A DNA stretch of 64,000 nt from Actinomycetota bacterium (GTDB lineage Bacteria > Actinomycetota > Actinomycetes > Mycobacteriales > Micromonosporaceae): contig VAWN01000028.1 in assembly GCA_005885555.1 (NCBI GenBank), forward strand, positions 38,519 through 102,518, in the 5' to 3' direction. Made by a program: the position numbers and the translations under genes. How positions within the stretch are numbered: position 1 is the stretch's first letter; every line of letters starts with the position of its first letter. Shown one piece after another: positions 3,047-32,549 of this stretch. The notes beneath the pieces were generated by a model. That model was not told where the DNA came from. It did no database searches and saw only the letters and a program-made list of their open reading frames with translations.

Positions 3047-6000
3047 TCAACCCGACTTGAGGGTCACGTCGTCGACGAGCAGGTCGCTTCCTGCGGGCTG
3101 GTTGGTCTCGTAGACGTTGAGGTCCAATGTGGACCCGGGGCTCACCACGGTGTAGGACAGTGTCACCTGCTGCCAGTCGCCGGTCGGGTTCACCGTCGTG
3201 GTACCGGTGTTGACCAGCGTCGCGCCGTTGTACTCGCGGATGCGCAGCTTGATCTGCCCGCCGACCGCGCCGGTGTTGACCCATGCCGTCGCGGTGTAGG
3301 TACCGGCGACGCTGCGGGCAACCCAGTTCGGGCTGTCGTTGAGCGTGCACGTCTGCGCCGACCCGAGCGGGTTGTTCAGGTCCGCGGCCCAGCCCTCGTT
3401 GTGCCCGCCGGCGACCCGGGTGAGGTTGCAGCCGGCCAGCGGCGCCCAACCGGACAGGTCGGTCTCGAAGGTCGAGTTGGTGACCAGGTTCCCGGCGAGC
3501 CCGGCGGACACCTGTACCGCGGTGGTCGACGTCAGGCCGGCGGTGTCGGTCACCGAGACCGCGAGCGCGTAGGTGCCGGGTCCGGCGTATGTGTGGCCCG
3601 CGGTGGGGGCGGACTGCGGCCCGGCACCGGTACCGTCGCCGAAGTCGAAGCTGTAGCTGGCGATGCCGGTACCGTCGGTGTCGCTGGACGCGCCGGCGTT
3701 CGCGGTGACCGACAGCGGGCTGGTACCCGACATCGGGGTCACCTGCAGCGCCGCATCCGGGCTGCGGTCGGTGGTACCGGCCGGCGCCTCGTACGCGCCC
3801 CGGTCATCGAACCCGTTGAACCCGTTGGCCACGGCCGGATCGTCGTACCGCGCGACACCCACGACGTCGGTCGGCTGTTCACCGGAGACGGTCGAGTCGG
3901 CCGAGTCGATCGCGGGGGAGCCGGCGGTGAGCGTGAACCCGCCGGTGTCCGGGCTCGCCCAGCGCGGGTCGGCGAGGGTGCCCCGCGACTCCTGCCCGGT
4001 CGCCGCGGCGAACGCCGACAGGGAGCCGTAGTTGGTGGTGCCCCAGACGTAGTAGGCGCCCGGCGCGTGCAGGTACACCAGGTTGGCGTTGACGACCGCA
4101 CCGCTCTGCGAGGCCGCGTCGACCCGGATGTCGCCCACCGACCGGGGACTGTTCAACCCGTTGTCCACGCTGATGTTGTTCTCCACCAGGCCACCGGTCG
4201 AGCCGCCCTCCAGGTTGATGCCCGCGGTCGTGTTGCGGTACACCGAGTTGCTGATGATGCGCTCGTTGGCGGCCTGGTAGTCGTCGATGCCGTGGTCGCC
4301 GTTGCGGTAGCTGACGTTGTTGGCCACCAGGCTGCCGTCGCTGCCGGTGTAGAGCTGGATGCCCGAGTCCTCATTGTCGTGCACCACGTTGCCGCGCACC
4401 GTGTTCCCGCCGCTGCGCAGGTCGATGCCGGGCGCAGCGCGGGTGTACTGGCGGGCGTTGGCGTACGCGGTGTTGCCGACGATCTGGTTGCCGGTCGCGC
4501 CCTGCGCGAGGTAGATGCCCGAGTCGGTGTTGTGGTCGGCGGTGTTGCCGCTGATCGTCGAGTTGGTGGTACCGACGACCTTGAAGCCCTTGGCGAAGCC
4601 GGTCGAGGTCGGTTGCCCGCAGCCGGTGACCCGCAGCCCGGACAGTGTCACGTTGCTGCCGCCGGTGACGTAGACCCCGTCGCTGACCGCGCCGCTGACG
4701 GTCAGCCCGGACACCGTGACGTTACTGCGGTTGGGCAGATAGATGCCGTGCGTCTGGGTCGCCGTACCGGTGACCGTCGGGCTGGCACCGGCGAGCGCGG
4801 TCACCGTCACCGGCGCGGTCGCGGTACCGGACGGTGGGCTGACCTGCTCGGCGTAGGTGCCGTTGCCGATGTACAGCGTCTGGCCGGGCAGCAGCCGCGA
4901 GGTGCCTTTGGCGATGGTGCAGTACGGCGTGGCCACGTCGCCCGGTCCGGTGTCCGCGCACTGCGCGTTGGTCTTGTCGACGTAGAAGGCGGTCACCGGC
5001 GGCGGCGCCGGCGGGGTACCGATGGTGTACTCGTCGATGATGCTGCCCGGCGCGCAGGTGATGTCGTCGCGGCTGGCCGCGTCGTCGCACACGGCCTGGA
5101 TCCGCATGCCGGTCGCGTCCACGTCGACCCGCAGGTGCGCCAGGTGCAACGCGCGGAATGCGGTGTTGGGATCGGTGCTGCCCCACGGCGTCTCCTCCGA
5201 CGCCGGGGTACCGACGGTCACGTGGGTCACCCCGTCGATCGGCTGGAACCGCTCGTAGTCGTGCGAGTGCCCGTTGATGTTGAGCACGTACTTGCTGTAC
5301 GTGGTGCCGAGCCCGTTGAGGATGCCGGCCAGCGTGGCGTCGCCGGGGTGGAAGCCGGTCGAGTACGCTGGCCGGTGCCCGTAGGTGACGATGTAGTTGA
5401 CGCCGGGGTCGCTCTGCGCAGCGGACATCAGGTCGCTGGCGTGCGCCTGCCAGTCCGGCCAGGTCGCCGACGTGTACGGCTCCGGGTACGCGATGAACCG
5501 CACGCCGCCCGCGTCGAACCAGCCCCAGTCGTTGCCGCCGTCGGAGATCGCCGGGGAGCCCGGTGACTGCGCGGCGTTGGGGAACAGCAGCCGGCCCTTG
5601 TAGTTGCGCAGGTCGTCGGCGGCCGGGCTCTCCCACTCGTGGTTGCCCCAGGCCGGCAGGTACGCCGCGCTGGTGCTGAACGTCATGACGTCGTTGAAGT
5701 GCTGGTCCACCACGGCCTGGGTGACCCCGGTGGCGTTGGCGTAGGTGAGGTCGCCGTCCATCAGCACGAACGACGGCTGGTCGCTGGCGATTGCGGAGAA
5801 CGTGTCGGCGAGGTGGCTGAAGTGGGTCGTGTCGCCGATGTCGCCGATCGCGTCGAACCGGAAGTCACCGGTCGGCGGGGTGTGGAAGGTGTGGTCCGCG
5901 CCGCCGCCGATCGAGTAGTGGTAGGTGGTACCGGCGGCCAGCCCGGCGAGCTGCGCCTGCCAGAACGGGCCGGGCGAGGAGGTCGGCGTCCAGGCCGGCG

Positions 6001-29908: not shown

Positions 29909-30760
29909 TCACCGGGGTGGCCGGGCGGTGCGCTTGCGGGCCGCGGTCTTCTTGCGCGGCGGTGCCTGCTTCGTGGCCGGGGCACCGCGCGCCGCGCGGG
30001 CCCGCTCCACCGACGCGCGCAGCGCGGCCATCAGGTCGACCGCCGCCGGCTGCGGACCCTCGCCCTCCAGCTGCATCACCTTGCGCCCGGCCAGCTTCGC
30101 CTCGATGACCTCCTGCAGCGCGGCGCGGTAGTGGTCGGCGTACTGCTCCGGCCGGAAGTCGGCCGCCATCGACTCGACCAGCGACTCGGCCATCGCCAGC
30201 TCCGCCGGCCGCGCGTCGACGTCCACGTCGAGGAAGGCGAAGTCCGGCCGGCGCACCTCGTCGGGCCACAGCACCGTGTTGAGCAGCAGCACCTGGTCGC
30301 GTACCCGCAACGTGGCCAGCTGCTCCCGCTGGCGCAGCGCCACCTTCACGATCGCGACCCGGTCGGTCCGGGTCAGCGCCTCGCGCAGGAGCACGTAGGG
30401 CTTCATCGCCCGGCCCTCGGGCTCCAGGTAGTACGCCCGGGTGTACAGGATCGGGTCGATCTGCCCGGCCGGCACGAACTCCAACACCTCGATGGCGCGG
30501 CTGGACGGCAGCGGCAGGTCGGCGAAGTCCTCGTCGGTGAGCACCACCATCTCGCCGCCGCCGAGGTCGTACCCCTTGGCGATGTCGTCGTACCCGACCT
30601 CCTCGCCGCAGATCATGCAGGTGCGCCGGTACCGGATCCGGCCACCGTCCTTCGCGTGGATCTGGTGGAACCGGATGCCCTTCTCCTCGGTGGCGGCGTA
30701 GAGCTTCACCCCGATCGACACCAGTCCGAAGGAGACCGTTCCCTTCCACATCGCCCTCAC
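29909..30760 (-). CDS. ku: Non-homologous end-joining protein Ku
   Basis: A 283-residue bacterial Ku, the homodimeric ring that binds double-strand DNA ends and recruits a ligase. Hallmarks: MWKGTVSFGLVSIGVKLYAA, FHQIHAKDGGRI, CMICGEEV, and the beta-barrel/bridge region YYLEPEGRAMKPYVLLREAL. A Lys/Arg-rich C-terminal tail (KKTAARKRTARPPR) would extend DNA contacts. GTG 30760 is chosen as start because family members begin M-R-x-[IM]-WKG. It is divergent, 53 bp apart, from a small protein gene and a PIN/ligase-like fusion, consistent with a shared NHEJ locus. Confidence 0.95.
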   Translation of the reverse strand: MRAMWKGTVSFGLVSIGVKLYAATEEKGIRFHQIHAKDGGRIRYRRTCMICGEEVGYDDIAKGYDLGGGEMVVLTDEDFADLPLPSSRAIEVLEFVPAGQIDPILYTRAYYLEPEGRAMKPYVLLREALTRTDRVAIVKVALRQREQLATLRVRDQVLLLNTVLWPDEVRRPDFAFLDVDVDARPAELAMAESLVESMAADFRPEQYADHYRAALQEVIEAKLAGRKVMQLEGEGPQPAAVDLMAALRASVERARAARGAPATKQAPPRKKTAARKRTARPPR

Positions 30761-30813
30761 GCTGACCCCCTTCACCGCACGCGTGCAGCGGCCTCGATGA
30801 CTAGAATGACCAC

Positions 30814-31014
30814 GTGGCCGCCGATGGTGCACCCGCAGATGCCCCGCAGTACCCCACGGCCACCGATCCCGCGCTCGATGACGTGCTGCGCGCGGCCGGG
30901 TTCGAGGTGACCGAGGCGGGCCGGCAACGCTGGCGGCGCCAGCTCGACGCGCCGATCCCCGCGGCGGCGCTGGCGCAGGCGCGACGGATGCTCGACCGGG
31001 GCCGCGCGGCGTGA
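30814..31014 (+). CDS. 66-residue protein, VapB-like small partner
   Basis: A short acidic N-terminus is followed by a helical segment [20 protein letters not shown] and [11 protein letters not shown]. Its wording ([20 protein letters not shown]) recalls small antitoxin-like proteins that precede PIN toxins in actinomycetes, though no DNA-binding fold is evident. GTG start; its stop overlaps the start of the downstream PIN-like/ligase gene (GTGA), so the two are translated together. Placed divergently from ku. The antitoxin idea is inference from context and size. Confidence 0.55.
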
Positions 31015-32549
31015 GCGAGATCGCCGTCGTCTACGACGGCTCCGCGCTGCTGGCATACGCGCATGGCCAGATCGGCGCCGCCGAGCTGATCTCCGAGATC
31101 AACGCCGAGGGCCGCCACGTCGGGGTACCGTCGACCTGCCTCGCCGGTGCGCTGGCCGTGCTGACCGACGAGTGGGACGTCACCCAGCTCATGCGGCTGG
31201 TACAGACGAAGACGATGGTCATCCTGCCGCTCGGCGGCGCCGACGACGGTGGCGACGACGGTGGCGACGACGGCGCGGCGGCGGAGAGGCTGCGCCAGGT
31301 CGGCGAGTTCACCCGCCTCGCGCACGGCGACCTGACCGTCGGCCACGCGGTCGCCGCGGCCCTGGCGCACGAGGCGTACTACGTCACCGCAAACCCCAGG
31401 CGCGCCGCGGACGCGCTACCGCCGAGCTGGCCGGTGCTGGACCTGACGCCGGTCGCGCTGGCCAGCGACCGGGTCGGCCTGACCTTGGCCCCGACGGTCG
31501 CAGCCACCCCGCCGGCTGAGCCACCCGCCACGCCGCCGGCTGAGCCACCCGCCACGCCGCCGGCCGGGACCGATCGGGCCGATGCGACCACGGACATGCC
31601 GGCCCTCGTCAAGCCCATGCTCGCCACCGCCGGCCCGCTGCCGGACGCGGGCGACTGGGGGTACGAGTTCTTCTGGGACGGGGTGCGCGCGATCGCCTAC
31701 GTCGACGGCGACACGGTACGGGTACTGGACCGCACCAACGCCGACGTCACCCGGACCTACCCGGAGCTGGCGGCGCTCGGCACCGCGCTCGCCGGCCACC
31801 GCGCGGTGCTCGACGGCGAGATCGTGGCGCTCGGCCGCAACGGGGTACCCAGCCTGGCCGCGCTGCAGCAGCGCACCCGCTCGCCGGTACCGGGTGACTC
31901 GCCGGTGCGGTTCTACCTGTTCGACCTGCTGCACCTCGACGGCACCGACCTGATGCCGCTGCCGTACGCGGGACGGCGCGACGCGTTGCAGCGGCTGCAG
32001 CTGCGCGGCGACACGGTCGAGGTACCGCCGTACTGGACCGGCGACGCCGGCCCCGCCCTGCTCGAAGCGGCCCGGGAACTGGGTCTGGAAGGCGTCGTCG
32101 CCAAGCAGGTCGGTTCGCCGTACCAGCCGGGCCGGCGGTCACCGGCCTGGGTCAAGGTGCCGCTCACCAGCACCGCAGAGGTCGTCATCGCCGGGTACCG
32201 GCCGGGTGGCGGGCGCCGCTCGGGGACGGTCGGCGCACTGCTGCTCGGCATGTCCGACGCGGCCGGCCGGCTGACCTTCGTCGGGCAGGTCAGCAACGGG
32301 TTCACCGATACGCAGCTGCGGGAGCTGCGCGACCGCCTGGAACCGTTGCGGCGCCCGGCCGCGCCGTTCGCCCAACCGGTACCGCGCCAGCAGGCCCGCG
32401 ACGCGCACTGGGTCCGCCCGGAACTCGTCGCCGAGGTGGCGTTCCGTTCGTGGACCCCGGACCGCCGGCTGCGCCGCCCGACCTGGCAGGGACTGCGCGA
32501 CGATCTCGACCCGGCCGGGGTACGGCTGCCGTCAGAGCTGGCTCCGTGA
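31011..32549 (+). CDS. PIN-like domain fused to LigD-type ATP-dependent DNA ligase domain lacking the nucleophilic lysine
   Basis: A 512-residue fusion. Residues 1-145 look like a PIN fold ([14 protein letters not shown], then [20 protein letters not shown] and VTANPRR), but of the expected acidic residues only Asp9 is clear. A Pro/Ala/Glu repeat linker (about 164-187) joins it to a ligase adenylation and OB domain. The ligase motif I, normally E-x-K-W-D-G, reads [10 protein letters not shown], with Phe221 (TTC) in place of the lysine that forms the ligase-AMP intermediate. Motif III (VLDGEIVAL) and IV ([13 protein letters not shown]) are kept; motif V reads AWVKVPL rather than WVKVK. The product is therefore probably not an active ligase. 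Its end overlaps the convergent kinase gene by 18 bp. Confidence 0.85.

Follow-up and report, generated by a model that had tools for sequence, protein, structure and literature searches.

The analysed window, a stretch of 64,000 nucleotides from the genome of a soil bacterium of the Micromonosporaceae, carries a gene pair whose second member joins a VapC-like PIN domain to a LigD-type DNA ligase in which phenylalanine occupies the place of the catalytic motif I lysine, and whose first member resembles the tail of an antitoxin. The components are known (VapBC fold, LigD ligase) and the domain architecture is new; no PIN–ligase fusion with a stripped antitoxin was found described in the open-licence papers that were searched. 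Tentatively, we favor the explanation that a ligase domain dead for self-adenylation persists as a module for DNA binding or scaffolding, mounted on a dock derived from a VapBC system. The features of the locus are as follows:

30814..31014, plus strand: 66-aa partner resembling an antitoxin tail (sequence and ORF analysis)
31011..32549, plus strand: 512-aa PIN–ligase fusion with GTG start (ORF)
31011..31014, plus strand: GTGA in which the stop of the partner and the start of the fusion overlap (sequence and relatives)
31011..31454, plus strand: PIN-like (VapC-fold) domain, fusion residues 1–148 (AlphaFold2, Foldseek, VIA-align, alignment)
31232..31284, plus strand: low-complexity Gly/Asp insertion (GGDDGGDDG) inside the PIN domain (tandem repeats, alignments)
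31455..31600, plus strand: linker with Pro/Ala/Thr/Glu repeats (tandem repeats, comparison with Asanoa)
31602..32546, plus strand: LigD-type ATP-dependent ligase lacking the lysine of motif I, with nucleotidyltransferase and OB domain (TIGR02779, PF01068, PF04679)
31671..31673, plus strand: TTC codon of Phe221 (relatives: AAG or AAA, the catalytic lysine)
29909..30760, minus strand: ku, divergent neighbor, a second ku copy being present in the genome (TIGR02772, E 1.6e-94)

Both ORFs of the pair are real and coupled through the GTGA overlap, and the VapBC-like character that a sequence-only reading had ascribed to them was borne out by a VapC-fold product with a small coupled partner upstream. 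ORF coordinates and family matches likewise confirmed that ku is divergent, with a gap of 53 bp. The reading frame of the fusion gene is intact and strongly biased, with a third-position G+C of 0.91–0.94, and its linker harbors a repeat of a 24-bp unit in 2.6 copies (31503–31564). No consensus promoter or terminator was detected in the region 30600–31100, and PADLOC reported no known defence system.

The identification of the C-terminal half as a LigD-type ligase held up, as it matches TIGR02779 with 261.3 bits (E 1.1e-77; cut-off 227.75) together with the Pfam domains DNA_ligase_A_M (PF01068) and DNA_ligase_A_C (PF04679, E 4e-29); its solved relatives are 1vs0 and 6nhz, both from Mycobacterium tuberculosis LigD. 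It resembles the LigD-type NHEJ ligases (TIGR02779; 1vs0) in its nucleotidyltransferase and OB domains, motifs III–V, the length of about 320 residues and, in this genome, a nearby ku gene, but differs from them by the phenylalanine in motif I, the N-terminal PIN domain and the lack of a polymerase or phosphoesterase domain. The nucleophile of motif I (K-x-D-G) is absent, F221 being located within EFFWDG, and the other catalytic motifs are kept, namely DGE (III), EGVVAK (IV) and W-V-K/WVK (V), along with the C-terminal OB domain. At the codon level the window reads GAG TTC TTC TGG, whereas all close relatives read GAG TTC AAG/AAA TGG, which confirms that Phe221 replaces the lysine by a codon that matches AAG at none of its three bases. 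The ligase half contains three lysines in all (201, 365, and 382), none of which adjoins motif I. The second lysine of motif V is literally missing, as had been pointed out; as a sign of decay this change was rejected, since this lysine is absent from most of the Lys-bearing relatives as well (WVKVPL, WIKTPL). One might suspect that codon 221 was misread or misassembled and that the true gene has the lysine, given a draft assembly of 197 contigs and a phenylalanine seen in one genome only. However, three adjacent bases differ, the frame is intact, no homopolymer is involved and the flanks have diverged normally, and we consider the chance of such an error to be very small.

A hydrophobic residue at the same position is also found in the M. 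tuberculosis LigD ligase domain 6nhz, where methionine stands in for the lysine (EGMWDG), which we take to be a laboratory substitution. As 6nhz is folded with this methionine, the LigD ligase domain tolerates a hydrophobic residue at the motif I lysine; the residue of the window differs in that it is natural, a phenylalanine, and part of a PIN fusion. Without the motif I lysine, formation of ligase-AMP is not expected from established ligase chemistry, and other ligases in which this lysine is mutated can join nicks that are already adenylated. It could be that the window protein is an enzyme of step 3 only, which forms no ligase-AMP but seals ends pre-adenylated by other ligases and in this way clears abortive intermediates, and the retention of motifs III, IV, and V would fit this. 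The motif I lysine, however, also helps to reorient the 5′ phosphate and AMP (PMC6698739), which phenylalanine cannot do, and we judge such an activity decidedly improbable.

For the N-terminal half, no match was obtained in Pfam or NCBIfam, where its relatives alone reach PIN, weakly, nor in a PDB sequence search with the PIN profile, and a class-wide search with this profile gave almost nothing beyond Micromonosporaceae. The earlier assignment as a PIN-like domain was confirmed by fold prediction, which places VapC proteins as top structures. The AlphaFold2 model (13-sequence alignment) reached a pLDDT of 88.9 and has its strands and helices arranged in the sequence typical of a PIN domain; the best Foldseek structure was 4chg_A (VapBC15, E 9e-5), and VIA-align yielded 5x3t_B (VapBC) with a Z of 13.1 across 124 residues. 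VapC proteins share the acids D, E, D, and D/N, whereby D/N is normal at the fourth position (PMC7180214). In the alignment, the window protein keeps D9 and presents G46, H112, and N128 at the second, third, and fourth position, respectively. The suggestion that most acidic metal ligands are gone is correct for the second and third acids. As gene-specific decay, however, it was rejected, since the same two acids are replaced in all close stand-alone relatives. A more distant PIN subfamily retains E or D at the second acidic position. The Gly/Asp insertion does not occur in relatives.

Sequence comparison places the window pair in a widespread two-gene cassette. Stand-alone relatives of the PIN protein occur in many Micromonospora and in other genera, nearly always with a coupled partner upstream and a 4-base overlap. 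These partners have about 83 aa, and their N-terminus resembles a ribbon-helix-helix (RHH) DNA-binding domain (KRSVSLPDDVAEWLD...NVSAAITAAVRAQ), with matching predicted helices and weak Foldseek matches to NikR and ParD2, though without HMM support; a PDB sequence search with the RHH segment gave no match. The 66-aa partner of the window has no Pfam or NCBIfam match. Over its last ~45 residues it corresponds to the C-terminal half of the 83-aa partners (tblastn and ORF analysis, more than 20 pairs), and over the C-terminal 40 residues the identity between the window and the stand-alone pairs amounts to 52–75%, which exceeds the conservation of the PIN protein. Since the RHH-like part is missing from the partner in all three genomes with a fusion (the window's and two of the Asanoa clade), the ligase fusion and the loss of the partner's likely regulatory part go hand in hand. 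For the widespread Micromonosporaceae pair itself, consisting of the 83-aa RHH-like and the PIN-like protein (L068-L074, L076-L079, around position 6000), no Pfam or NCBIfam family was obtained above cut-off; in its PIN-like protein, the third acidic position is taken by histidine or in some cases by glutamine.

In comparison to VapBC systems (VapBC15 of M. tuberculosis, 4chg; VapBC, 5x3t), the window pair is alike in the PIN fold, the short upstream partner, the 4-base overlap and the partner tail, and the partner N-terminus of its stand-alone relatives looks RHH-like. It differs by G46/H112, by a partner without the putative DNA-binding half and by the fused ligase, and any toxin role is putative. 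The VapC fold and the tightly coupled antitoxin-tail partner would suit a toxin–antitoxin module whose dead ligase serves to target nucleic acids, guiding the PIN domain to nicked DNA or RNA that it then cleaves. We regard this as improbable, considering that throughout the family two of the four acids typical of PIN domains are replaced, that the partner is devoid of its presumed autoregulatory domain and that the Asanoa versions keep an apparently active ligase.

A fusion-type PIN domain was detected in 3 of the 355 Micromonosporaceae genomes, these being the window's and two from the Asanoa clade, so that uniqueness of the fusion had to be rejected. In a genus search, two of six Asanoa genomes carried it, and a scan of genome contigs recovered Asanoa iriomotensis for one fusion and otherwise stand-alone pairs only. 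No fusion homologue was found in one other genome of the window's genus (77% complete), nor on plasmids, where no record covered 80% of the query. The Asanoa fusions (NZ_BONC01000010, L066/L075, and G100, L067) show 69–70% identity to the window fusion and have the fusion and the truncated partner in common with it; in contrast to the window, they have the lysine, no nearby ku and a shorter linker. Their motif I reads YEFKWDG and FEFKWDG, respectively. Lys-bearing orthologues, named at first reading as a finding that would refute it, therefore exist, and loss of the lysine, known from a single genome, does not belong to the architecture as such. The ligase tree groups the three fusions in a clade with 100/100 support, the sisters of which are stand-alone Micromonospora ligases, all with lysine. 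As the lysine is present in both Asanoa fusions and in all sister ligases, it can be deduced from these sequences that the fusion arose with an active-looking ligase and that the lysine was lost on the branch of the window. The A. iriomotensis copy carries deletions of its own next to motif I (GRH--NLT). In-frame low-complexity expansions at 31232–31284 (Gly/Asp) and 31503–31564 (Pro/Ala/Glu) are present in the window protein and not in the Asanoa fusions.

The substitution pattern indicates that the ligase half is under purifying selection. Among 46 columns that are invariant in 40 Lys-bearing relatives, the window protein has altered two (K221F and F282L) and kept 44. Pairwise dN/dS between the window and the Asanoa fusions amounts to 0.32–0.41 over both halves, with 0.32–0.38 for the PIN half and about 0.40 for the ligase half, which resembles Lys-bearing pairs at equal distance, but these values are averaged over the whole long branch with a large dS and cannot date the lysine loss. 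Relative-rate tests gave nearly equal counts on both sides (29 v 27, 30 v 29 and similar) and thus no sign of acceleration. To turn AAG into TTC, three single-base substitutions are needed, or else a single multi-base event in which the adjacent TTC was copied. Under the stepwise route, the lysine would have been missing for some time while the gene and its other motifs remained intact. Taken together, the constraint and the codon change favor, without proving it, a retained non-catalytic function. On the other side, the low-complexity expansions in the PIN domain and the linker suggest some relaxation. A serious rival explanation is that a redundant copy was recently inactivated, whereby the nucleophile was lost by chance, the protein has no function and the motifs are intact because too little time has passed. 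It accounts for most of the facts nearly as well as a scaffold does: the lysine is lost in one genome only, the fusion is patchy (3/355 family genomes, 2/6 Asanoa), other Lys-bearing ligases are present in the genome, the window protein has acquired its expansions, and the A. iriomotensis copy has deletions beside motif I. The intact frame with its third-position G+C bias, the lack of rate acceleration, the 44 preserved columns and the three-base codon change speak against it, and we consider such a loss possible, albeit somewhat unlikely. The step-3-only and toxin-targeting explanations are less likely than either recent loss or a scaffold.

With regard to end joining, the genome has two ku genes, and the second copy (G000:C64) is 74% identical to the ku gene of the window. 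Besides, it encodes the Lys-bearing LigD-type ligases L002 and L003. The second ku gene (L105) lies about 2.3 kb from L003 (G000:C64:134437-138523), and the same arrangement of ku with a Lys-bearing ligase is also present in six Asanoa genomes; this locus is probably the main NHEJ locus. Within the E limit used, no close copy of the window ku was found in 251 family genomes, and no ku was located beside the Asanoa fusions within the fetched 10–11 kb, so that a conserved linkage of ku and the fusion is unsupported. As ku neighbors the fusion in this genome only, the adjacency is weak evidence for a dedicated NHEJ factor. In Streptomyces, it is usual for ku and ligase genes to be multiple and variable, and they add to the resistance against damage there (PMC5124664). 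For the fusion, a structural or regulatory role, as proposed at first reading, would still be plausible. When human DNA ligase IV is deprived of its lysine, it continues to support, in a structural manner, the end joining carried out by other ligases (PMC9638927, PMC10858965), and the proposal for the window shares with this inactive enzyme (K273A) the idea of a nucleophile-less ligase as a structural end-joining factor. The human variant, however, is engineered, acts with XRCC4 and BRCT domains and has no PIN domain, so that this is an analogy only.

Apart from the fusion, a second lysine-less ligase-like protein is encoded in both analyzed genomes of the genus, L007 (G000:C187:192070-192588) and L099 (G043:C520). 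By eye, it has a LigD phosphoesterase-like domain, and this precedes a truncated nucleotidyltransferase without OB domain, in which motif I is replaced by FELWWPGERA or YELEWPGVRA and DGE by DGVVV. Moreover, the palindrome GGTACC occurs 179 times in the window, compared to 16 expected from dinucleotide shuffles. Other contigs of the same genome (G000) have 2.5 sites per kb and the second genome of the genus (G043) has 1.7, as against 0.1–0.2 per kb in the Asanoa and Micromonospora loci. It thus looks like a genus-specific highly iterated palindrome, reminiscent of the cyanobacterial HIP1.

For the explanation that we tentatively favor, a scaffolding ligase domain on a VapBC-derived dock, the following course can be given. 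The ancestor was a two-gene VapBC-type cassette of Micromonosporaceae, consisting of an antitoxin and a PIN protein. In a rare lineage a Pro-rich linker came to connect the PIN protein with a LigD-type ligase that was active at first. The partner lost its putative DNA-binding half, leaving the presumed PIN-binding tail alone. In the window's genome the ligase then lost the adenylate-accepting lysine and retained the rest of its fold. The sequences and the predicted fold document this ancestry, the architecture, the lysine loss and a constraint averaged over the branch; binding, scaffolding and a link to Ku are inferred. By analogy to VapBC, the partner tail would cap the PIN domain, and the missing acids suggest that the latter serves as a docking or dimerization module and not as a nuclease. 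The ligase half might bind at nicks or at DNA ends and perhaps hold ATP, with no self-adenylation taking place, and the fusion might act as a scaffold or regulator together with the adjacent Ku and the other Lys-bearing ligases of the genome. A more far-reaching version, which we hold to be rather improbable, is that of a natural pseudo-ligase, in which a toxin–antitoxin-derived PIN domain and antitoxin tail were recruited as a regulatory dock for an NHEJ ligase that in one lineage turned into a purely structural factor of end joining and cooperates with the second Ku encoded next to it, as a bacterial parallel to scaffolding by inactive Lig4.

The evidence for the lysine loss comes from a single genome, which tempers the interest of the finding. 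Overall, a PIN–ligase fusion with a stripped antitoxin unites two systems that are normally apart. The Lys-bearing fusions of Asanoa and the Lys-less fusion of the window constitute a natural pair for comparison with respect to a non-catalytic ligase function in bacterial end joining, and they also bear on the recycling of VapBC folds as docking modules once the nuclease center is gone.
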